Source: Robiginitalea aestuariiviva (GTDB lineage Bacteria > Bacteroidota > Bacteroidia > Flavobacteriales > Flavobacteriaceae). From it: a stretch of DNA of 64,000 nt. The position numbers and the translations under genes are program-made. Below the pieces are notes generated by a model. The model searched no databases and was not told the origin of the DNA. It was given only the letters and a program-made list of their open reading frames with translations. The stretch's first letter is position 1; every line of letters starts with the position of its first letter. Below, one piece after another: positions 53,259-64,000 of this stretch. The stretch lies in NCBI RefSeq assembly GCF_029537735.1, contig NZ_JARPUQ010000001.1, positions 680,965-744,964 on the forward strand, in the 5' to 3' direction.

Positions 53259-54077
53259 TTACAATTCCCGGATCCAGATGTTCCGATAGCTTACCCGGCT
53301 ATTGTCTCCGTGGTCCTGCAGGCGCAACGGCCCCTTGCCATGCGGGGGGTTTTTGGGCCATCCGATATATGGGGTGGTGCCCTTAATCTCCACATGGTCC
53401 TGTACCAGTACCCCGTTGTGGATCACGGTCATGGTCCCGGATTTGATCTTCTCCCCGGCCTCGTTAAACTCCGGCATGTGGTAGATGATGTCGTACGTAT
53501 TCCAATCCCCCGTAGGCACTGAAGCCTTGGCCAGAGGAATGTGCTGCTTGTACAGGGAAGCCACCTGCCCGTTTACATAGGTGGGGTTGTCGTTGTTGTC
53601 CAGCACCTGTACCTCATAAAGGTCGTTCAGGAAAATCCCGCTGTTGGCCCGGCTCTGGTTTTCGCCCTGCACCTCGGCAGGGGAACGCCATTCGATGTGC
53701 AGCTGCACGTCCCCGAAATTCTGCCTGGTCTGGATGTCACCGGTCTTGTCGTTTACGGTCATACTGCCGTCTTCGTTCAGGTGCCAGGTCACTGCGCTGC
53801 TGTCGCGGGTCATGATCCACTGGTCAAACCCACTCCCGTCAAACAGCACAATGGCATCCGAAGGGGCGCCATTCTGGCCAAAGGGATCCACCGTGGGCGG
53901 CACAGGCTCGTAAAGCTCGGTCTGGGCCGGTTCAGTGGGCTCTTCCCCCTGGTATTCCTCATGGATGATCGCCTGGGGGGTGTCGGGAGGTGTCGGGGCA
54001 TCCGGCATTTCCGCTGTCTGGGGCTTACAGGAAGCCAGGACCAGCAGCCCGCACAAAGTCAAAAGTCTCAAAATCAT
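53259..54077 (-). CDS. DUF1080 (3-keto-disaccharide hydrolase-like) lipoprotein A
   Basis: 272 residues. Lipobox LASC with Cys17, an acidic Pro-rich linker to about 65, then one DUF1080 concanavalin-like domain: IVLFDGSGFDQW, DIQTRQNFGDVQLHIEWRSPAE, NSGIFLNDLYEVQVLD, and C-terminal PLRLQDHGDNSRVSYRNIWIREL. Recently studied DUF1080 proteins cleave 3-keto-glycosides by elimination/hydration. It probably acts at the cell surface or in the periplasm. It is the last gene of the isomerase-DUF1080-DUF1080 operon, 1 bp after the second DUF1080 gene. Confidence 0.9.
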   Translation of the reverse strand: MILRLLTLCGLLVLASCKPQTAEMPDAPTPPDTPQAIIHEEYQGEEPTEPAQTELYEPVPPTVDPFGQNGAPSDAIVLFDGSGFDQWIMTRDSSAVTWHLNEDGSMTVNDKTGDIQTRQNFGDVQLHIEWRSPAEVQGENQSRANSGIFLNDLYEVQVLDNNDNPTYVNGQVASLYKQHIPLAKASVPTGDWNTYDIIYHMPEFNEAGEKIKSGTMTVIHNGVLVQDHVEIKGTTPYIGWPKNPPHGKGPLRLQDHGDNSRVSYRNIWIREL

Positions 54078-54078
54078 A

Positions 54079-54840
54079 TTAAAGGGGTTTTATCTTAATA
54101 TTCCTGAAGGCCACAGGGTCTCCGTGGTCCTGTACCCCAAGCTTGCCGCTGGGGTATTTGCCAAAGCCTTCCCAGCCGGCAAATTTGGAGCCGGCCACCA
54201 TGGTGTCCCAGGCTTGATTGCCCAGGGGGAATTCCACGATCCGCGTCCCGTTCAGGTCTACCGAACCCTGCTGGTTGGCGTAATCCACCGTAATCACCAT
54301 CAGGTTCCATTCCCCAACCGGACGGGTCACATCCGCAGCCGGGGCCACCATGTCGTACAGGGCACCCGCCTGGTGGGTGGTACCGGCTTTGGCATCCGGG
54401 TGGCGCTGGTTATCCAGCACCTGGATTTCAGGGCCGGTCAGGTAAGGCTGGCCAAACTGCTCGCCTTCCTCTACCCCCCAAAAGACACCGCTGTTGCCGC
54501 CTTCGCCTATGCGCCATTCCAGGGAGAGGACAAAGTTGGTATAGGTACCTTCGGTAACCAGGTTGTAGTTGGCCCCCTGCGGGCGTTCTTCCGGCGGGGT
54601 AAACACCATGGCACCGTCTTCAATACTCCAGGTTTCGGGCACGCCCTCCTGGTTATAGCCTTTCCAACCCTCAAAAGAGGTACCGTCAAACAGGCTGATC
54701 CATTCCCCCGCTTCAGAAGCCTGGGCTTCCGCCATGGCGGGGGTTTCTTCGGCCGCCCCTTCTTTGGGTGCCTGCCTGCAGGCCGATTGCAGGCTAAGCA
54801 CGGCTGCGATACACAGCCCGATCCCTTGGCGCGCTCTCAT
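54079..54840 (-). CDS. DUF1080 (3-keto-disaccharide hydrolase-like) lipoprotein B
   Basis: 253 residues. Lipobox SAC with Cys21, then a DUF1080 domain: WISLFDGTSFEGWKGYNQEG, FVLSLEWRIGEGGNSGVFWGVEEGE, PEIQVLDNQRHPDAK, KLGVQDHGDPVAFRNIKIKPL. The two DUF1080 proteins differ clearly and probably have different substrates. Its start overlaps the isomerase gene stop by ATGA. Confidence 0.9.
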   Translation of the reverse strand: MRARQGIGLCIAAVLSLQSACRQAPKEGAAEETPAMAEAQASEAGEWISLFDGTSFEGWKGYNQEGVPETWSIEDGAMVFTPPEERPQGANYNLVTEGTYTNFVLSLEWRIGEGGNSGVFWGVEEGEQFGQPYLTGPEIQVLDNQRHPDAKAGTTHQAGALYDMVAPAADVTRPVGEWNLMVITVDYANQQGSVDLNGTRIVEFPLGNQAWDTMVAGSKFAGWEGFGKYPSGKLGVQDHGDPVAFRNIKIKPL

Positions 54841-55895
54841 GAGTCCTGCCCCAGGATTTTGCGCAGCATCTTCTCGTCGATGGCCCCTCCGGCAAAATCG
54901 TCGAAGGTTTTCTCGGTGGCCTCGATAATGTGGTCCTGGATAAAGGCGGCCCCTTCCCGGGCGCCCTGCTCCGGGCTCTTAATGCAGCATTCCCATTCCA
55001 GCACCGCCCAGACGTCGCATCCGTACTGGGTCAGTTTGGAGAAAATGGTGCCGAAGTCAATCTGCCCGTCCCCCGGGGAACGGTAGCGGCCGGCGCGGTC
55101 GCCCCAGTCGTTATAGCCGCCAAAGGCACCTTTTTTACCGGTGGGGTTAAACTCGGAGTCCTTCACGTGGAAGGCCTTGATAAATTCATGGTAATGATCG
55201 ATGTACTCAATATAATCCAGCTGCTGCAGCACAAAGTGGCTGGGATCGTACAGGATGTTTACCCGCGGGTGGTTGCCGGTGGCAGCCAGGAATCGCTCAA
55301 AGGTGTCTCCATCGTGCAGGTCTTCCCCTGGATGGATTTCGTAGCAAACGTCCACGCCCTCTTTGTCAAAATGGTCCAGGATGGGTTTCCAGCGCTTGGC
55401 CAGTTCCGAAAAACCCAATTCCACAAGCCCGGGCGGGCGTTGCGGCCAGGGGTGGAAGGTATGCCAGAGCAGGGCCCCGGAAAAGGTAGCGTGGGCGTTC
55501 AGCCCCAGGCGCCGGCTGGCCGTGGCCGCCTTTTTCATTACATCCACAGCCCATTCGGTACGGGCCTTGGGGTTGTTTTTATAGGCATCGGGGGCAAAAT
55601 TGTCGAACATCAGGTCATAGGCCGGATGCACAGCCACCAGTTGGCCCTGCAGGTGGGTGGAAAGCTCGGTGATTTCCAGCCCGTAGGATTGGATTTTACC
55701 TTTGAGTTCATCGCAGTAATCCTGGCTTTCGGCCGCCTTGTCCAGGTCGATCAGGAAGGATTCCCAGGTGGGAATCTGTATCCCTTTATACCCCAGGTCC
55801 GCAGCCCACTGGCACATGCCGTCCAGGCTGTTGAATGGCGCTTTGTTGTCTACAAACTGGGCCAGGAAAATAGCAGGCCCTTTAATTGTCTTCAT
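54837..55895 (-). CDS. Sugar phosphate isomerase/epimerase family TIM-barrel protein (cytoplasmic)
   Basis: 352 residues without a signal peptide. AP_endonuc_2/xylose-isomerase-like barrel with metal-ligand segments: VCYEIHPGEDLHDGDTFERFL, NILYDPSHFVLQQLDYIEYI, FHVKDSEFNPTGK and WAVLEWECCIKS. These enzymes bind a divalent metal and isomerise or epimerise free keto- or aldoses. It is the first gene of the operon with two DUF1080 genes, so a 3-keto-sugar is a likely substrate. The 5' region is shared with the divergent GMC gene. Confidence 0.9.
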   Translation of the reverse strand: MKTIKGPAIFLAQFVDNKAPFNSLDGMCQWAADLGYKGIQIPTWESFLIDLDKAAESQDYCDELKGKIQSYGLEITELSTHLQGQLVAVHPAYDLMFDNFAPDAYKNNPKARTEWAVDVMKKAATASRRLGLNAHATFSGALLWHTFHPWPQRPPGLVELGFSELAKRWKPILDHFDKEGVDVCYEIHPGEDLHDGDTFERFLAATGNHPRVNILYDPSHFVLQQLDYIEYIDHYHEFIKAFHVKDSEFNPTGKKGAFGGYNDWGDRAGRYRSPGDGQIDFGTIFSKLTQYGCDVWAVLEWECCIKSPEQGAREGAAFIQDHIIEATEKTFDDFAGGAIDEKMLRKILGQDS

Positions 55896-56089
55896 TGGGT
55901 TAGATTTTAGCGTTTTGGTTCATTGTCGGGCTGTCTGGCAGGCGGGAATCGAAAGCGGCAGTCGGGCGGGAATTCCCTAAGACCGATTGCCGAAAATGCC
56001 CTATATTTAGATTCGATGATCACAATGGGCGCCTACTCCTGTGCAGCGCTTATAAATATAGGAATTACCCAAGAATTAACCTTTTCGAA

Positions 56090-57796
56090 ATGGACCCCAA
56101 TTCAGAACAATACGACGCCATTGTAGTGGGTTCCGGCATAAGCGGGGGGTGGGCTGCCAAGGAACTCTGCGAGGCCGGGCTCAAAACCCTGGTGCTGGAA
56201 CGGGGCCGCATGGTCAAACACCTGGAAGACTACCCCACGGCCAATCAGGACGACTGGGACCTGCCCAACAGGAACCAACTGAGCCGCAAACAGCGGGCCG
56301 AATACCACAAGCAGCTGCGGGTGGGGTGGGCGCCCAGGCCGGATGTAGCGCACTTTTTTGTGAACGACCTGGAACACCCCTACCAGGAAACCAAACGCTT
56401 CGACTGGATACGCGGGTATCAGGTTGGGGGCCGTTCCCTGACCTGGGGCAGGCAAAGTTACCGCTGGAGCGACCTCGATTTTGAGGCCAACCTCAAGGAA
56501 GGCATTGGTGTGGACTGGCCGGTACGCTATGCGGACATTGCCCCCTGGTACGACAAAGTAGAACAATATATTGGCGTTAGCGGGGAAGCCCTGGGGCTGC
56601 CCCATCTGCCGGACGGGAAATTCCAGCCGCCCATGGACCTGAACTGCGTGGAGCGCGAATTCCAGGGTGCCCTGAAAGGCGCTTTCCCGGATGGCCGCCT
56701 GGTAACTATTGGCCGGGCTGCGCACATTACGGACCCGGAGTCCAGCCACCCCGGGCGCACCGCCTGTCAGTTCCGGGACCGATGCTGGCGCGGCTGCCCC
56801 TTTGGCGGGTATTTCAGCAGCAACTCCTGCACCCTGCCAGCGGCCGAACGTACGGGCAACCTCACCCTCCGGCCGGATTCCATTGTTCACGAAGTACTGT
56901 ACGACCAGGCCAGCGGCCTGGCTACCGGAGTGCGTGTGATTGACCGTGTGACCCAAGAAAAACTGGTTTTCAAAGCCAATATCGTCTTCCTATGCGCCTC
57001 GTCCATGGCTTCCGTAGGCATCCTGTTGCAATCCAAAAACGAGCGCTTCCCGGATGGGATCGGCAACAACCACGACCAGGTGGGCCGCAACATCATGGAC
57101 CACCACTACCAGCTGGGCGCCACGGCCAAGGTAGACGGGCATAAGGATTCCTACTATAAGGGCCGGCGGCCCAACGGCTTCTATATTCCGCGCTTTGTAA
57201 ACCTGGGCAAAGGGGCCGCGCAAAAAGAATACCTCAGGGGCTTTGGTTACCAGGGTTCCGCCAGCCGCGAAGACTGGAGTGCCGCTGTGGCCGAAATGGG
57301 CTATGGGGCAGACCTGAAAGCAGCCCTGATGGAACCCGGAGACTGGACTATTGGCGCCACCGGTTTCGGGGAGATGCTGCCCTACCACGACAACCGGGTA
57401 ACGCTAAGCCAAACCGAAAAGGATTCCTGGGGCCTGCCCCAACTGGATTTCGATGTGGAATTCAAAGAAAACGAATACCGGATGCGGGAAGACATCCTCC
57501 GCCAGATCGTAAGCATGTTTGAAGCCGCGGGCTATCGGGACATCCGCACCTATGAGCGGGAAACCGGACCGGGCCTGGGCATCCACGAAATGGGCGGCGC
57601 CCGTATGGGCAAAGACCCGAAGACTTCGGTGGTAAACCGCTTTAACCAGGTGCACGATGTACCCAACCTCTATATTACCGACGGGGCTTTTATGAGTTCC
57701 GCCAGTTGTGTGAACCCCTCCCTTACCTATATGGCCTTTACGGCCCGTGCGGCAAACCACGCCGCCGAACAATATAAGGCAGGGGCATTCAGTTAA
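56090..57796 (+). CDS. GMC family FAD oxidoreductase
   Basis: 568 residues. FAD-binding VVGSGISGG (12-20). The C-terminal GMC_oxred_C has catalytic His499 in GIHEMGGARMG and Asn542 in SCVNPSLTYMAF. A cysteine-containing stretch CQFRDRCWRGCPFGGYFSSNSC sits in the middle. Family members oxidise sugar hydroxyls; related bacterial enzymes make 3-keto-sugars. No signal peptide is seen and no gluconate-dehydrogenase-type small subunit lies next to it. A close paralogue begins at 63840. It is divergent from the isomerase-DUF1080 operon and followed by an ASCH gene. Confidence 0.93.
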   Translation: MDPNSEQYDAIVVGSGISGGWAAKELCEAGLKTLVLERGRMVKHLEDYPTANQDDWDLPNRNQLSRKQRAEYHKQLRVGWAPRPDVAHFFVNDLEHPYQETKRFDWIRGYQVGGRSLTWGRQSYRWSDLDFEANLKEGIGVDWPVRYADIAPWYDKVEQYIGVSGEALGLPHLPDGKFQPPMDLNCVEREFQGALKGAFPDGRLVTIGRAAHITDPESSHPGRTACQFRDRCWRGCPFGGYFSSNSCTLPAAERTGNLTLRPDSIVHEVLYDQASGLATGVRVIDRVTQEKLVFKANIVFLCASSMASVGILLQSKNERFPDGIGNNHDQVGRNIMDHHYQLGATAKVDGHKDSYYKGRRPNGFYIPRFVNLGKGAAQKEYLRGFGYQGSASREDWSAAVAEMGYGADLKAALMEPGDWTIGATGFGEMLPYHDNRVTLSQTEKDSWGLPQLDFDVEFKENEYRMREDILRQIVSMFEAAGYRDIRTYERETGPGLGIHEMGGARMGKDPKTSVVNRFNQVHDVPNLYITDGAFMSSASCVNPSLTYMAFTARAANHAAEQYKAGAFS

Positions 57797-57813
57797 TAGC
57801 TTATAGGCATGCT

Positions 57814-58272
57814 ATGAAAAATAAATCTGCAAAACGGCTTTGGGGGGACTTCCTGGACCACCACCTGGAATACGCCTTTGCATCCGAACCCCGGGTGGAA
57901 CACTTTGGCGACACTCCCGAAATTGCAAACACCTGCCTGGATCTGGTGATGAAAGGCCGCAAGCGCGCCACAACCCCATCCCTGCTGGGGTTGCAGTGCC
58001 GCAAGGAACCCCTGCCCAAAATCGGGGACTTTACTATCCTGACCAATTGGGAAGGGGAGGCCAAATGCATTGTGCGCACAGTTGGGGTACGCCTGAAACC
58101 CTTTTTCAGCATCCACGCTTCTTACGCCAAGCTGGAAGGGGAAGGCGACGGCTCCCTGGACTATTGGAAAAAAACGCATTGGGACTACTACACCCGGGAA
58201 CTGGAACCCTTTGGAAGGGTGCCCCGCGAAAGTATGATCGTAGTCTGTGAGATTTTCGACAAGGTGTACTAA
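57814..58272 (+). CDS. ASCH domain protein
   Basis: 152 residues. ASCH fold: MKGRKRATTPSLLGLQ, PKIGDFTILTNWEGEAKCIVRTVGVRLKPF, GDGSLDYWKKTHWDYYTRELEPFG. It is a PUA-like domain that may bind RNA; some members have amidohydrolase activity on N4-acetylcytidine. It starts 17 bp after the GMC gene; a functional link to sugar oxidation is not evident. Confidence 0.9.
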   Translation: MKNKSAKRLWGDFLDHHLEYAFASEPRVEHFGDTPEIANTCLDLVMKGRKRATTPSLLGLQCRKEPLPKIGDFTILTNWEGEAKCIVRTVGVRLKPFFSIHASYAKLEGEGDGSLDYWKKTHWDYYTRELEPFGRVPRESMIVVCEIFDKVY

Positions 58273-58490
58273 CCCAAGGATTTGTAACCGCAGCGGCTGG
58301 CCATTGTACGCGGTTTAACGCCAGGTTACGCAAGGGGGCTACCCCCCCCACCCCTGTTTCAAGGTAATACCCCACCCTGCAAGTGCCCATCAGCCGGAAT
58401 AAAATCTAACGGCCACCCCATGGGGTTTTTCACTCCCGGCACGAACAGGACAGCGAATGCCTCTCCCATTCTTAAATGCACAATTCTTCA

Positions 58491-58521
58491 AATAAAAAAA
58501 CCCGGCCAATAGCCGGGTTTT
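58491..58521. terminator. Terminator after the Gfo/Idh/MocA gene
   Basis: AAAACCCGGC (58497-58506) pairs with GCCGGGTTTT (58512-58521) around CAATA; on the minus strand a run of T follows (58500-58494). It ends the minus-strand sugar operon. Between it and the ASCH gene (58273-58490) I see no gene; a weak ACCCCATGGGGT-TTTT hairpin at 58415-58430 may end the + strand transcript. Confidence 0.85.
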
Positions 58522-58540
58522 CTCATTCCTTTTTATGGGA

Positions 58541-59677
58541 TTAATCCAGATCTACCCAAACGTTGCCCCCTTTGTGGGAGGCTACGGTAGCCTCGATGAA
58601 ATTAAGGCCGCGGACCCCGTCCTCCATGGTCGGAAATTCCCCGTCGTTGTAGGTCTCCCCACGGATGGCCCGTGCGGCGCCCCGGTAGATGTTCCCCATG
58701 GCGTCAAAGATCCCTTCCGGGTGCCCGGCGGGGAGTTTGCTGCCATCCAGGGAAAGCACTGAGTTATACGCGTGGCCCGGTTTGTACACCTGTACCGGCT
58801 CGGTATCGCTAAGCACATAGAGGAAATTCGGGCGTTCCTGCTCCCAGCGGAAGCCGGCCTTTTCCCCATAAATGGTAATAGCCAGCCCGTTTTCTTCCCC
58901 AGTAGCCACCTGGCTGGAACGGAGCACGCCTTTCACGTGCTCGCCCAGGCGCAACAGGCAGGTGCCATCCACATCCATCACGTTGTCCTCGTACAGGTAG
59001 TTAAAGTCGCATAGCAGCGACTTTACCTTGAGGCCCGTGGTGAATTCAATCATGTTGAAGGCGTGTACACCGATGTCTCCCATACAGGAACTGATCCCCG
59101 CTTTCTTGGGGTCCAGACGCCATACGGTACTGCGCTTAGCCTTGTCGTGGATAATGGGGTTAATCCAACCCTGATAATAGCGCGCGTCCACCTTGTGGAT
59201 CTTGCCCAGGAATCCCGCCTTGATCATCTCGCGCATCTGGCGCACCATGGGATAGCCCGTATACGTATGCGTCACGGCAAAGACCTTTCCGGACTTCTTG
59301 TGGAGGTCCTGCAGGATTTTGGCCTCTTCATACGTGGTGGTCATCGGCTTCTCGCAAATCACATTAAAGCCGTTTTCCAGTAAGGCTTTGGCCATCGGGA
59401 AATGCAGGAAGTTCGGGGTTTGGATCGAACAGACCTGCATCCGCTCGGATTCCGGCAGCTTCATCTCCTCGGCAATGAGGGTGTCCAGGTCCGGGTAAAT
59501 CCGGTTGGTGGCAATGCCGAGTTCCCGGGCAAAGGCCAGGCTGGCCTCAAGGTCCGGGTTAAATACGGCCCCGACGATCTCGTAACAGTCATACATGTGG
59601 GCGGCTACCCGGTGCAGCACACCAATAAGGGAGTCGCCTCCTCCTCCTAATATTCCTAATCTGATTTTTTGCGGCAT
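58541..59677 (-). CDS. Gfo/Idh/MocA family NAD(P)-dependent dehydrogenase
   Basis: 378 residues. Rossmann fold with GILGGGGDSLIG near the N-terminus, EKPMTTTYEEA (catalytic-region EKP), and C-terminal substrate domain with MGDIGVHAFNMIEFTTGL (GxxxDxGxH-type His). Family members oxidise or reduce sugars and inositols at one carbon; in 3-keto-glycoside loci they interconvert hydroxyl and keto at C3. It is the last gene of a five-gene minus-strand operon and lies 27 bp after the MFS gene. Confidence 0.93.
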   Translation of the reverse strand: MPQKIRLGILGGGGDSLIGVLHRVAAHMYDCYEIVGAVFNPDLEASLAFARELGIATNRIYPDLDTLIAEEMKLPESERMQVCSIQTPNFLHFPMAKALLENGFNVICEKPMTTTYEEAKILQDLHKKSGKVFAVTHTYTGYPMVRQMREMIKAGFLGKIHKVDARYYQGWINPIIHDKAKRSTVWRLDPKKAGISSCMGDIGVHAFNMIEFTTGLKVKSLLCDFNYLYEDNVMDVDGTCLLRLGEHVKGVLRSSQVATGEENGLAITIYGEKAGFRWEQERPNFLYVLSDTEPVQVYKPGHAYNSVLSLDGSKLPAGHPEGIFDAMGNIYRGAARAIRGETYNDGEFPTMEDGVRGLNFIEATVASHKGGNVWVDLD

Positions 59678-59704
59678 GGATCTTGGATTCTGATTTTTAT
59701 GTGA

Positions 59705-60922
59705 TTAATCGTGTTTGATTCGTTTTTCTTCCAGTTTGTTGCGCATGGCAAAGAGGATCCCGAAAAGGACTATCAGGATTACCGGCAGCCACATGATATT
59801 CCCCAGGGTAGCCTGCCCGGCCACCAGGTCTGCAGCCTGCTCATCCACCCCGGATTCCAGGGCAGCCGTCCTCTCGGCATCCAGGGTATTGCCGATCAGC
59901 GGCAGGGAAACCCCCGTGATCAGCATCCCGAATCCGCCGATAATGGACATCCCCAGGGCACCGGTTTTATGCCTGTACTCGCTTATAAAGCCCACCATGG
60001 TTGGCCAGAAATACATGACCCCCAGGGAGAACAGGATGGCCGCAACGTATACCATGCCTCCGGTAGCCTGAGACAACAGGAAGAGGGCCAGGGTGGCAAC
60101 CACGGATGAAATCAGCAATACCCCGATGGGGTTCAGTTTGTGGATGATGGGGCCGGCAAAATAGCGCCCTACCGCCATCAGGCCGGTCACAATGGCCAGG
60201 ATGATCAGGGGCGGTGCGCCAGCGGCGCCCAGCAGGCGCTCAATAAACTGCCCTGTACCCAGTTCTGTGGTAGCCGTCAGGCCCATACAGATCAGCATAA
60301 ACAGGAACAGGGGGGTGAACATGGATTTGATATTCATGCTCAGGTCGGATTCGATATTTTCGGCCTTGGGGAATTTCTGCCCCAGGATCAGGTAGCCGTA
60401 AATCAGGGTCGGGATGATCATAATGGCGATCTGCAACTGCCAGGACCAGCTCAGGCTGCCCATCAGCTGCCCCAGCAGGGCCCCGATCACGATCCCCCCG
60501 GGGAACCACACGTGAAACTTGTTGAGCATGGTGGTTCGATTGGTGGTATACATATCGGCAATAAGCGGGTTACAGGCCGCCTCTACCGCCCCGTTGGCAA
60601 GGCCTACAAAGAAGGTAGACACCAACAGGGGTACAAAACTCTTGGCCACAATGGTCAGGACCAGCCCCAGTAGGTGGCAGACAAAGGCCACCCAGAGGAT
60701 GGGTTTGGGACCGACTTTGGGATAAATAAGCCCGCCGATAATCATGGCTACCGGAAACCCGTAGAAGGCCATGGAGTTCATCCAGCCCAACTGGGTGTCG
60801 TTAAAGCCGAAATCGACGATGAGCTCTTCCATGATGCCCGCCCTCAGGGCAAAGGTCATGGCCGTTACGATGAGCGCAACGCAGCTGGCCAGGAATAGCC
60901 GGTTTTTGTTGATGTCTTTCAT
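59705..60922 (-). CDS. MFS transporter (sugar-type)
   Basis: 405 residues, twelve membrane helices. MFS features: FGFNDTQLGWMNSMAFYGFPVAMIIGGLIYPKVGPKPILW in the first half. It probably carries a monosaccharide or small glycoside across the inner membrane. No SusC/SusD genes are present in the locus, so outer-membrane entry may be by porins or use genes beyond the window. Confidence 0.9.
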   Translation of the reverse strand: MKDINKNRLFLASCVALIVTAMTFALRAGIMEELIVDFGFNDTQLGWMNSMAFYGFPVAMIIGGLIYPKVGPKPILWVAFVCHLLGLVLTIVAKSFVPLLVSTFFVGLANGAVEAACNPLIADMYTTNRTTMLNKFHVWFPGGIVIGALLGQLMGSLSWSWQLQIAIMIIPTLIYGYLILGQKFPKAENIESDLSMNIKSMFTPLFLFMLICMGLTATTELGTGQFIERLLGAAGAPPLIILAIVTGLMAVGRYFAGPIIHKLNPIGVLLISSVVATLALFLLSQATGGMVYVAAILFSLGVMYFWPTMVGFISEYRHKTGALGMSIIGGFGMLITGVSLPLIGNTLDAERTAALESGVDEQAADLVAGQATLGNIMWLPVILIVLFGILFAMRNKLEEKRIKHD

Positions 60923-60961
60923 AGTGGATGTTTGTTTAGTTGAAGGGTTTAAGATATAAAA

Positions 60962-62170
60962 TTATGGATGATAGTTCACTTTCTCATTGCGGAAGAAGAG
61001 GATAAACAGCAGCAGCACCAGATAGGCAAACCCCGCCGGATACAGCCATATGGTGTCCCATAGATGGCCGCCCTCTTCCAAGTAGTGGTCTACGATAACC
61101 CCGGATACCCGGTAGCCGATGAGCATCCCCACCCCGTAGGTGGCCAGGGTAATCAGGCCCTGGGCGGAACTCCGGATTTTTTCACCGGCCTTCACATCGG
61201 TATAGATCTGCCCGGACACAAAAAAGAAGTCGTAACAGATGCCGTGCAGGATAATCCCCCCAAAGAGCATCCAGGCGCCCGAACCGGCATCGCCCATGGC
61301 AAACAGGGTGTAGCGCAGGCCCCAGGCCAGCATGCCCGCAATCAGGGTCCATTTCAGCCCAAAACGGTTCAGAAATACCGGCAACAGGAGCATAAAGAGG
61401 ACTTCCGAGATCTGGCCAATGGCCATGTTTCCGGCTGCGTTGGCCATTCCCACTTCATTGAGGAAGGGGTTGGCAAAGCTGTAATAAAATGCCAGCGGGA
61501 TACAGATTAGTACACTGGAAAGCAGGAAGACCAGGTAATTCCGGGCCTTGAGCAACCGCAGGGCATCCAACCCCACAATGCGGGCCAGGGTAACTTTTTC
61601 ACCCTTGGCGCCAGGAGGCGTTTCGGGCAGCGTAAATGAAAACAATCCCAGAACCAGGGAGCTTCCTGCCCCCAGGATAAATGTGTATTGCAGTAATTCC
61701 CGTCCTTCCCACTGCAGCACATAGCCTATGAGCATCCCGGCCGCAATCCAGCCTACCGTACCCCACACCCGTACCCGGGCAAACTGGGCAGAAGGGTCGT
61801 GCATCTGATGGAAGGCCACGCTGTTGGCCAGGGCCAGGGTGGGCATATACAGCACCATATAGGCCAGCAGTAAGGGATAAAAGGCAACGAAATCCTCAGC
61901 CACCCCAATGCGGTAGAGCAAATACGCCCCGGCCAGATGGATCAGGCCCAGGAGTTTCTGTGCCTGGAAATACCGGTCTGCGATCAGGCCTACAATAAAG
62001 GGAGCAAGGATGGCCCCCCAGGCCTGGGTCATGTAGGCGGTACCGATCTCACCCCCGCCGGAACCCAGGGCGCGCCCCATATAGGTCCCCATGGTTACAA
62101 ACCAGCTGCCCCAAACAAAGAATTCGAGGAACATCATCAGGGAAAGCTGGATGGTGATTCGGCGTTTCAT
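60962..62170 (-). CDS. Nucleoside:H+ symporter-like MFS permease (NupG family)
   Basis: 402 residues, twelve helices. N-terminal LSLMMFLEFFVWGSWFVTMGTYMG, QAWGAILAPFIVGLIADRYF and FARVRVWGTVGWIAAGMLIGY are typical of the NHS/NupG family. Bacteroidota members in sugar loci may carry other substrates than nucleosides. It is one gene of a close-packed cluster: the DinB gene ends 1 bp upstream of it, and the next MFS gene starts 39 bp on. Confidence 0.88.
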   Translation of the reverse strand: MKRRITIQLSLMMFLEFFVWGSWFVTMGTYMGRALGSGGGEIGTAYMTQAWGAILAPFIVGLIADRYFQAQKLLGLIHLAGAYLLYRIGVAEDFVAFYPLLLAYMVLYMPTLALANSVAFHQMHDPSAQFARVRVWGTVGWIAAGMLIGYVLQWEGRELLQYTFILGAGSSLVLGLFSFTLPETPPGAKGEKVTLARIVGLDALRLLKARNYLVFLLSSVLICIPLAFYYSFANPFLNEVGMANAAGNMAIGQISEVLFMLLLPVFLNRFGLKWTLIAGMLAWGLRYTLFAMGDAGSGAWMLFGGIILHGICYDFFFVSGQIYTDVKAGEKIRSSAQGLITLATYGVGMLIGYRVSGVIVDHYLEEGGHLWDTIWLYPAGFAYLVLLLFILFFRNEKVNYHP

Positions 62171-62171
62171 C

Positions 62172-62621
62172 TTATTCGGCCCGCTTGTAGTGGATGTAGT
62201 CCAGCACCGGGGGCTGTATCCCTGCCCCGCGCAGAAGAGCCAGGATCTGGGCCCTGTGATGGGTGCCGTGGTTGATCATATGAAAAAGGATATCCTGCAG
62301 GCTGTTGGAAAATTGCCTGCCCTCTGAATTCTCATAGGAAATGCGCCGGTCAAAATGTGTAGCCTGGGTAAGGATCTCAAAGGAATTGCGTTGGTTTTCA
62401 TAGTGCAGATCCGCCCAGCCGGCCGGGTCCTGTTCAAACCAGGCATCGTACCGCGGGGGCTCTTCTGCAATGCGCGCATTCCAGATGTGGTGGGCATTGA
62501 GCACATGGGAAAACAGGGAAGTAAAACCCTCCGGAACCGCCCCGGCCCCGGAGTGCACTTCCATGAGTTGCTTGTTGGCGTAAAAATTGTAGTCAAACAA
62601 CTGTTGAAAAAAGGCTTTCAT
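62172..62621 (-). CDS. DinB family protein
   Basis: 149 residues, no signal peptide. Four-helix DinB bundle with histidines in LFSHVLNAHHIWNARI and HMINHGTHHRAQILALLRGAG, matching the three-His metal site. Possibly a thiol-dependent transferase or isomerase. It lies between the TIM-barrel gene and the NupG-like gene in the same direction, 15 bp after the former. Confidence 0.92.
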   Translation of the reverse strand: MKAFFQQLFDYNFYANKQLMEVHSGAGAVPEGFTSLFSHVLNAHHIWNARIAEEPPRYDAWFEQDPAGWADLHYENQRNSFEILTQATHFDRRISYENSEGRQFSNSLQDILFHMINHGTHHRAQILALLRGAGIQPPVLDYIHYKRAE

Positions 62622-62636
62622 CCCCCATGGATTGCA

Positions 62637-63638
62637 TTAGGTCATGGCAGCGGCCGCTTTCAGCAAGAGGTCTCGCGTGGCAATGATCCCGGCTTCCTCG
62701 CCCAGGGTATTGCCCTCGTATTCCACGCCGACAAACCCTGTGTACCCCGCATCCTTTACGATTTGCATCATACGCACATAGTCAATCTGGGCCTCGTTCC
62801 CTTCGGCGTCAAAATCGTGGGATTTTGCGCTCACGGCCTTGGCATAGGGCATAAGTTCGGTTACGCCCTGGTAGATGTCGTACATCTCTGCACATCCGGA
62901 GCCATAATCGGCCGGGTCATTCCTGCGGATGCAGAAGTTGCCGAAATCCGGGAGGGTCCCGCAATTGTCCATCCCCACCTGGGCCATAACCGATGCCAGC
63001 ATCTGGGCATTGGAAGACAACCCGCCGTGGTTTTCGACCAGGATGTTAATGTTTTTGTCCGCCGCGTAGGTGGCCAGACGGGTTAGCCCGTCCACAGAAT
63101 TGGGTACCCAGGCCTCAGGGTCATTGCTTCCGGCCAGGTTTACACGGATGGAATGGCACCCCATGGCTGCGGCGGCATCCACCCATTTATGGTGGTTCGC
63201 GACAGCGGCTATGCGAGCTGCCTCATCGGAAGTGGCCAGGTCTCCCTGCCCGTCAATCATAATCAGCAGGTTGGTCATGCCGTGCTTTTCGGCCTCTGCA
63301 TTGCACTTATCCACAAACTCCTGCATGGCCTCCGGGCTGTAACCGGCAGGTTCCAGGGTTCCCCGGTACAACTGGCTTACGTACTCCAGGCCCTCGAAGC
63401 CCCAGGCCTTGGCCTTTTCGGCAAAGGAATAGGGGTCCGCACCTTCGTTAAAGATCATGCGGTGGATGGACCACTGGGCCAGGGACAGTTTGAAAAAGGG
63501 CGCAGCGGCCATTGTGGCAGCGGCTTCTTCCGCTTCCGGAGAAGCGGTTTTGGTCTTGTCTTTACAGGCGGCCATGCCCAGGAGGGAAAACGCCGCTCCG
63601 GCTCGGGCACTTTGGTGGATAAAGGTTCTTCTTTTCAC
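62637..63638 (-). CDS. Exported sugar isomerase/epimerase-like TIM-barrel protein
   Basis: 333 residues. The N-terminus MKRRTFIHQSARAGAAFSLLGMAAC has a twin-arginine motif and a lipobox-like AAC (Cys25), so export by Tat and lipidation are likely. The AP_endonuc_2/hydroxypyruvate-isomerase-like barrel has INILVENHGGLSSN, GTLPDFGNFCIRR, VSAKSHDFDAEGNE and FVGVEYEGNTLGEEAGI as likely metal and substrate segments. It is the first gene of the operon ending at 58541 and divergent from the second GMC gene. An exported isomerase fits keto-sugar chemistry in the periplasm. Confidence 0.9.
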   Translation of the reverse strand: MKRRTFIHQSARAGAAFSLLGMAACKDKTKTASPEAEEAAATMAAAPFFKLSLAQWSIHRMIFNEGADPYSFAEKAKAWGFEGLEYVSQLYRGTLEPAGYSPEAMQEFVDKCNAEAEKHGMTNLLIMIDGQGDLATSDEAARIAAVANHHKWVDAAAAMGCHSIRVNLAGSNDPEAWVPNSVDGLTRLATYAADKNINILVENHGGLSSNAQMLASVMAQVGMDNCGTLPDFGNFCIRRNDPADYGSGCAEMYDIYQGVTELMPYAKAVSAKSHDFDAEGNEAQIDYVRMMQIVKDAGYTGFVGVEYEGNTLGEEAGIIATRDLLLKAAAAMT

Positions 63639-63839
63639 GGTTAGGTGTTGGTTTTACATTTATTTCGGCTAAACCCACGAATTTGACCCGGGAAATCCCG
63701 GGCGCGATAAGGGCTTAGCTTTCATTGCATTATCCTCGGAAAACCCAGCAAAACAGTGCGAATCCAGAGGGTTAGGGATCGTTTAAATGTAGAAAATTAA
63801 TTTAATATTTAATACTTTTAAAAACTAAACAATTTATGG

Positions 63840-64000
63840 ATGAGCAAGTTCTATTACAATGAACCGCAGGAAACCTACGACGCTATTGTGGTGGGAAGCG
63901 GGATCAGTGGAGGCTGGGCGGCCAAGGAGCTCTGTGAGGCAGGGCTGAAAACACTGGTGCTGGAGCGCGGTCGGATGGTAAAACACCGGGAAGACTACCC
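63840..64000 (+). CDS. GMC family oxidoreductase, N-terminal part (cut by window end)
   Basis: 53 codons and 2 bases from the ATG at 63840 to the window end; an ATG at 63836 is out of frame and stops after eight codons. FAD-binding VVGSGISGG and AKELCEAGLKTLVLERGRM agree with the GMC protein at 56090 in 40 of 41 residues, while 20 of those 41 codons differ silently. It is divergent from the TIM-barrel operon, with a very AT-rich stretch at 63785-63835 before it. Confidence 0.9.
   Translation, partial: MSKFYYNEPQETYDAIVVGSGISGGWAAKELCEAGLKTLVLERGRMVKHREDY

Follow-up and report, generated by a model that had tools for sequence, protein, structure and literature searches.

The window analysed here, a stretch of 64,000 nucleotides from Robiginitalea aestuariiviva (C1:680965-744964, genome 3.22 Mb), carries from position 53259 to its end a gene cluster that very probably encodes a two-compartment, non-hydrolytic pathway for glycosides. 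Two lipoproteins of the PF06439 (DUF1080) family of 3-keto-glycoside hydrolases/eliminases come first, a second paralogue, DUF1080a (53259-54077, minus strand, Pfam 4.1e-38), and the core copy DUF1080b (54079-54840, minus, 1.9e-48). They are followed by HYD, a putative cytoplasmic 2-hydroxy-3-keto-glucal hydratase with a TIM barrel (54837-55895, minus, PF01261 1.2e-40); the GMC flavoprotein dehydrogenase paralogue GMC1 (56090-57796, plus, PF05199 1.4e-22); the Gfo/Idh/MocA oxidoreductase Gfo, likely a 3-keto-hexose reductase (58541-59677, minus, PF22725 4.5e-21; PDB 3v5n, 9.1e-85); two candidate importers of the cleaved keto-sugar, an MFS permease (59705-60922, minus, PF07690 (MFS_1), 1.3e-23) and NucH, a YegT-type symporter of the NHS family (60962-62170, minus, PF03825 (Nuc_H_symport), 8.9e-120); the exported barrel TIM2, possibly an extracytoplasmic eliminase or epimerase (62637-63638, minus, PF01261 4.1e-26); and the first 161 bases of the GMC flavoprotein dehydrogenase GMC2 (63840-64000, plus; full gene C1:744804-746519).

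The locus was extended past the window end, as a first-pass annotation made from the window sequence had proposed. Beyond 64000 we found the remainder of GMC2 (L001:11805-13520), a PF13618 subunit with a twin-arginine translocation (Tat) signal (C1:746519-747169; L001:13520-14170), a Tat-signalled third TIM barrel, TIM3 (C1:747180-748094; L001:14181-15095), and then ribonucleotide reductase genes. The reading frames are open from 53259 to 63638, and all families that the annotation had named (two DUF1080 proteins, two barrels, one Gfo, two GMC proteins and two permeases) score above the Pfam cut-offs. It had also reported no glycoside hydrolase, SusC or SusD, and none was found among the 13 proteins scanned in the extended locus.

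HYD aligns over nearly its full length with PDB entry 8ro4, "2-hydroxy-3-keto-glucal hydratase", at 66% identity (232/349 residues; E = 8.1e-166), and by this similarity it is probably an enzyme of the same kind. The closest named hydratases, from Robiginitalea aurantiaca and Zobellia russellii, are each 93% identical to it. HYD matches occur in 125 of 395 Bacteroidota genomes; those of full length, 75 copies from 73 genomes with the own copy and one split copy counted in, all fall into a single class between 64 and 91% identity, after which identity drops to at most 35%. With such a hydratase beside a GMC protein and its Tat subunit, Gfo and DUF1080 proteins, the 3-keto-glycoside route suggested at first pass is well supported.

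Conservation of the cluster was followed in 80 named loci, the best matches by HYD identity, in which short contigs count as misses; 59 of them have full 10-kb flanks. All 59 contain Gfo, 57 DUF1080b, 57 GMC2, 56 TIM2, 54 PF13618 and 51 NucH, while DUF1080a (45), GMC1 (32), TIM3 (27) and the MFS permease (13) are less frequent. The genes nadD, gmk and yicC, which adjoin the locus, are found in 71 of the 80 loci. Orientation is kept for GMC2 in 69/70 cases, for yicC in 70/72, for gmk in 71/73, for nadD in 69/71 and for the other window genes in all. Nineteen of the 80 loci have neither GMC1 nor the ASCH and DinB genes described below, and 14 of these 19 keep PF13618, GMC2, TIM2, NucH, Gfo, HYD and DUF1080b, the set that we take as the core; the five exceptions are L060, L075, L081, L085 and L086, some of them on short contigs. 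On the strength of this synteny, chance assembly of the locus was rejected.

GMC1 and GMC2 are 65.7% identical over 560 amino acids, the sole close duplication in the locus. The "duplicated modules" of the first-pass annotation are real for this pair, but the DUF1080 proteins, at just 28% identity, are distant paralogues from an old, diverged duplication; no significant relationship to HYD emerged for the other barrels in pairwise comparison, and NucH and the MFS permease belong to different families. The GMC2 and PF13618 genes overlap by one base, and PF13618 is adjacent to 62 of 66 GMC2 copies and to none of 45 GMC1 copies (copies longer than 1400 bases), so that GMC2 has the adjacent Tat-signalled subunit characteristic of the Agrobacterium type of system. 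In an alignment with fructose dehydrogenase, GMC2 keeps three Cys of a Cx5Cx3C stretch, presumably cluster ligands, as well as a His and an Asn in the C-terminal region that we take to be catalytic. In a quick tree of 118 GMC rows, GMC1 forms a single clade (46 rows, support 100) that joins 49 GMC2 rows with support 87; the remaining GMC2 rows lie outside, and six rows on long branches, including three proteobacterial ones and another GMC protein of this genome, are unsurely placed. Three PF13618 genes accompany the four GMC genes of this genome; none of the three adjoins GMC1, and each lies beside another GMC gene. GMC1 may share the PF13618 subunit of GMC2, which is a guess.

Reading the sequences by eye, we found lipobox-like N-termini on both DUF1080 proteins, a twin-arginine motif plus Cys on TIM2 and on the PF13618 protein, and no export signal on HYD, Gfo or the GMC proteins. 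A fixed lipobox/twin-arginine rule was then run on homologues in the related loci. It detected a lipobox in 54/64 DUF1080b, 33/56 DUF1080a and 61/65 TIM2 homologues and a twin-arginine motif in 51/62 PF13618, 29/30 TIM3 and 25/65 TIM2 homologues. No signal was detected by this rule in HYD (0/80), Gfo (0/74), GMC1 (0/76) and GMC2 (0/75; the two GMC sets share genes), or in the controls gmk (0/70), nadD (0/71), ASCH (0/57) and DinB (0/46). A cruder rule used earlier (lipobox in 37/64 DUF1080b, 24/56 DUF1080a and 24/65 TIM2; twin-arginine in 62/62 PF13618) was replaced because it placed false lipoboxes on 9 of 74 Gfo proteins. Export of a signal-less GMC protein by hitch-hiking on a small Tat-signalled subunit is known for fructose and glucose dehydrogenases, and by analogy the signal-less GMC2 next to PF13618 agrees with such export. 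The split between exported and cytoplasmic proteins recurs in the related loci and fits periplasmic oxidation and cleavage, import, and cytoplasmic hydration and reduction.

The cleavage step would fall to the DUF1080 proteins, two lipoprotein-like, apparently exported proteins near dehydrogenase genes. DUF1080a matches PDB 4qhz (4.1e-74); the best match of DUF1080b is 4jqt (6.9e-43), and it also matches 8rr2, a "3-keto-disaccharide hydrolase domain-containing protein" (2.7e-38). Cleavage might alternatively be wholly extracytoplasmic hydrolysis: the DUF1080 proteins would split 3-keto-disaccharides by hydrolysis, nothing but hexose and 3-keto-hexose would be taken up, and HYD would belong to a different route in the cytoplasm. 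The Pfam name of PF06439, 3-keto-disaccharide hydrolase, speaks for this variant, as do the available text of Price et al. 2022, which refers to hydrolysis (PMC9007349), and plasmids of Azospirillum and Phyllobacterium that carry HYD and Gfo but have, in incomplete gene tables, neither DUF1080 nor GMC annotated at distances of up to 10 kb. Against it, the start of DUF1080b overlaps the stop of HYD by 4 bases, DUF1080b is the gene directly after HYD in 74 of 79 loci, and a hydratase would be superfluous if water were added outside; we regard it as unlikely.

A different division of labour would make TIM2 the main glycoside eliminase, like the Mn2+ eliminase barrel OGE of Agrobacterium, with the DUF1080 proteins as accessories. 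TIM2 is predicted to be exported and occurs in 56 of the 59 full-flank loci, and a Foldseek search with its AlphaFold model (mean pLDDT, the predicted local distance difference test score, 89.4) returned the uncharacterised 4ovx at rank 1 and, at ranks 2-12, chains of DgpB/C, CGD and DfgA-B (eight entries), structures that we take to be deglycosidases of the CGE type. In VIA-align, however, 4ovx (Z = 41.4) and the Art22 isomerase (28.8) precede the deglycosidases, which reach about 24-26, level with many epimerases, so that these C-glycoside deglycosidases stand near the top but not clearly above epimerases among the structures compared. CGE-type deglycosidases are described in the accessible part of PMC10628242. 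A shared barrel fold is no proof of function, moreover, and the activity that has been described belongs to PF06439; a principal role of TIM2 is unlikely. On the modelled structure, TIM2 is possibly an extracytoplasmic eliminase or epimerase. A profile comparison gave no link between TIM2 and HYD (hhalign probability 0.7%). TIM3 resembles structures of AP-endonuclease-2/YgbM and of tagatose 3-epimerase, though weakly.

The predicted reductase Gfo lies within the cluster in all 59 full-flank loci, as in the Agrobacterium type of system. It scores 78.1 bits against the levoglucosan dehydrogenase model NF052479 (cut-off 650), and the model of the Bacteroides BT_2158-type glycoside 3-dehydrogenase, NF058561, gave 25.9 bits (cut-off 750). 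The first-pass annotation had named inositol catabolism as an example of a function that would overturn its reading, and an IolE-like barrel, an IolG-like Gfo and inositol-importing permeases would indeed make up a cyclitol route. HYD does score 61 bits with the model of IolE, and Gfo 35 bits with that of IolG, the fold families being common to both pathways, but these scores are far below the curated cut-offs of 290 and 355, and no protein of the genome passes that of IolD (257 bits against 715). Moreover, HYD has a far closer solved relative in 8ro4 and, to our knowledge, DUF1080, GMC and PF13618 genes are not iol genes. Inositol catabolism is thus highly improbable.

For the step across the membrane, the locus offers NucH and the MFS permease. 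NucH scores 341 bits against YegT (8zoj) and 222 bits against NupG, and in the alignment it keeps the residues at YegT Asp315 (GICYD) and Glu255 (GQISE). According to the available text of PMC11979927, YegT does not keep the residues implicated in uridine binding by NupG, and isothermal titration calorimetry gave no significant nucleoside result for YegT. We surveyed relatives of both transporters in the 395 Bacteroidota genomes, counting as near those within 12 kb of HYD. Of the NucH relatives with at least 55% identity, 33 of 38 are near HYD (own copy included), and such cases occur in 19 of 22 genera; the fraction is 16/58 at 45-55% identity and 0/54 below 45% among the matches listed, though 19 of these 54 are in HYD-bearing genomes. 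MFS relatives with at least 43% identity are near HYD in 12 of 30 cases (own copy included), and 25 of the 30 are in HYD-bearing genomes. Counted from the 75 HYD copies, 46 have only NucH nearby, nine (in eight genera) only the MFS permease, three both and 17 neither, which suggests that either transporter can take the place of the other. We claim no probability for this pattern because of kinship among the genomes and of neighbours hidden by contig ends.

Since NucH and the MFS permease are near alternatives beside HYD, both are good candidates for keto-sugar importers, and this pattern is the new element of our analysis. We give an even chance to the more specific proposal that the reactive product of cleavage in the periplasm, 2-hydroxy-3-keto-glucal or a 3-keto-hexose, enters through the YegT branch of the "nucleoside" symporters (NHS, PF03825) or, in the genomes where it takes their place, through the unrelated MFS permease. 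If so, an orphan transporter branch would gain a substrate, and import would be the step across the membrane that connects oxidation in the periplasm with hydration in the cytoplasm.

Beyond the close relatives the cluster is looser. In 29 short loci (4 kb each) from other Bacteroidota, Gfo is the commonest neighbour of HYD, with 38-43% identity from L096 on, except L099. HYD also matches 362 plasmid records, 286 of them at 60-80% identity, whose hosts are proteobacterial by name among the 40 matches listed. A Pseudoalteromonas megaplasmid carries, by annotation, Gfo-HYD-MFS-DUF1080-GMC-PF13618-barrel in one row (identities: HYD 70%, MFS 56%, Gfo 42%, DUF1080 37%, GMC 32% to GMC2); a Croceicoccus plasmid has Gfo-HYD-PF13618-GMC, the Azospirillum and Phyllobacterium plasmids have HYD-Gfo beside sugar ABC transporters, and on a Sphingobium plasmid GMC, Gfo and HYD genes lie amid genes for glycosidases. 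Two HYD-bearing plasmids of Klebsiella pneumoniae (65.9%) are among the matches listed, and 54 plasmid records of Pantoea match.

HYD is 64-72% identical in several genomes of the own family, as against 82-83% in two genomes of another family (G046 and G127), whereas the neighbouring guanylate kinase gene gmk is 77-81% identical in the same own-family genomes and at most 60% outside the family among the matches listed. HYD identity is therefore out of step with kinship, unlike that of gmk, which suggests transfer of HYD between lineages, coupled with strong constraint. That HYD is merely a very slow-evolving protein was also considered, and the comparison with gmk favours transfer instead.

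From the genes present, their orientation and conservation, the signals for compartments and the closeness of HYD to a solved hydratase, we infer the reactions, the substrate, the compound imported and the order in which the steps cross the membrane as follows. Outside the inner membrane, GMC2, carried out by the Tat-signalled PF13618 subunit, would oxidise the glycoside at C3, with the respiratory chain accepting the electrons. Release of the aglycone or second sugar would then fall to the DUF1080 lipoproteins, possibly assisted by TIM2, and would leave 2-hydroxy-3-keto-glucal or 3-keto-hexose. This product would be imported by NucH or, in genomes where it substitutes for NucH, by the MFS permease. 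In the cytoplasm, HYD would hydrate the glucal to 3-keto-hexose, and Gfo would reduce this to hexose.

Several observations weigh against this scheme. The functions are predictions from sequence, from which no substrate follows. A LacB-type cytochrome c subunit is absent from the 13 proteins of the extended locus, to which the search was confined, GMC1 has no adjacent export partner, and neither transporter is near 17 of the 75 HYD copies. TIM2 and TIM3 fill no assigned step, and TIM2 has Ser and Lys at the positions of HYD His243 and Lys245, by the unreliable profile alignment with a probability of 0.7%. The lipobox rule missed 23 of 56 DUF1080a homologues, and just 25 of 65 TIM2 homologues have the twin-arginine motif. 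The 80 loci, chosen by HYD identity, are biased to close relatives; farther away the match is looser, Gfo beside HYD being just 37-43% identical. The PF13618 protein and the barrel of Pseudoalteromonas have no tblastn match to the locus proteins, and its GMC protein groups, on long branches, with another GMC protein of this genome and not with GMC1 or GMC2.

Two further genes lie inside the cluster, one for an ASCH-domain protein (57814-58272, plus, PF04266 1.6e-21) and one for a DinB-family protein (62172-62621, minus, PF05163 6.9e-18). The first-pass annotation had left them unexplained; we found no role for them either, but they are conserved neighbours and not peculiar to this genome. ASCH is present in 58 and DinB in 47 of the 80 loci, with place and orientation kept (43 and 38 of the 59 full-flank loci), and of the 27 full-flank loci that lack GMC1, 13 have ASCH. 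In the Maribacter litopenaei locus (L064), several genes are in pieces (two GMC1, three TIM2 and two gmk matches, for example), perhaps through frameshift errors in the deposited sequence. A second keto-sugar-like locus of R. aestuariiviva (C1:455519-464129; L004:7520-16130) encodes a Gfo extended at its N-terminus by about 40 residues, a double-domain DUF1080 protein, the TRAP transporter DctM/DctP, KDPG aldolase, a PfkB kinase and the glucuronate isomerase UxaC, and suggests the same chemistry on a glucuronoside.

Flavobacteria are usually described through SusCD-type loci. Here an oxidise-cleave-hydrate-reduce gene set holds a conserved spot beside nadD-gmk-yicC in many of them, with two candidates for the import step, which the literature covered leaves unsettled. 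Our PMC searches, which took in few subscription papers, listed no paper that describes this flavobacterial cluster in its title or at the beginning of its abstract; absence from the literature is not thereby proven. The kind of pathway is already described in other bacteria. LacA and LacC of Caulobacter are presumably PF13618 and GMC proteins, respectively, and LacB a cytochrome.

In the part of PMC9007349 available, Caulobacter lacABC lies near genes for a transporter, a reductase, two epimerases and two DUF1080 proteins, of which one is reported to have a putative signal peptide. The transporter, the epimerases and the reductase are reported to be important on lactose, and relatives of the lacABC-DUF1080 set are given for Pedobacter, Indibacter and Algoriphagus. 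The mix of exported and cytoplasmic parts, thought at first pass to be unexplained by known versions, recurs in the relatives, and its two-compartment layout closely resembles the one that Price et al. 2022 put forward there for Caulobacter. Compared with the published description, our cluster has an extra GMC paralogue, DinB and ASCH, and no cytochrome gene. The non-hydrolytic glucoside operon of Agrobacterium tumefaciens, as far as the accessible text of PMC10628242 describes it, encodes GlycDH (GMC), a TAT protein, the eliminase OGE, HYD and Gfo. Our locus shares with it the GMC protein and Tat partner, the hydratase barrel (by its likeness to the solved hydratase 8ro4), Gfo and a second barrel; it differs in having DUF1080 lipoproteins and NHS and MFS transporters, and its second barrel is exported and similar in fold only. 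The two alphaproteobacterial plasmids, from Azospirillum and Phyllobacterium, have sugar ABC transporters beside HYD in place of the NHS and MFS transporters found here. The lgdA-B1-B2-C levoglucosan operon of Bacillus smithii, in the available part of PMC7676230, follows the same chemistry of oxidation, elimination, hydration and reduction, with the oxidation carried out by an NAD-dependent dehydrogenase.

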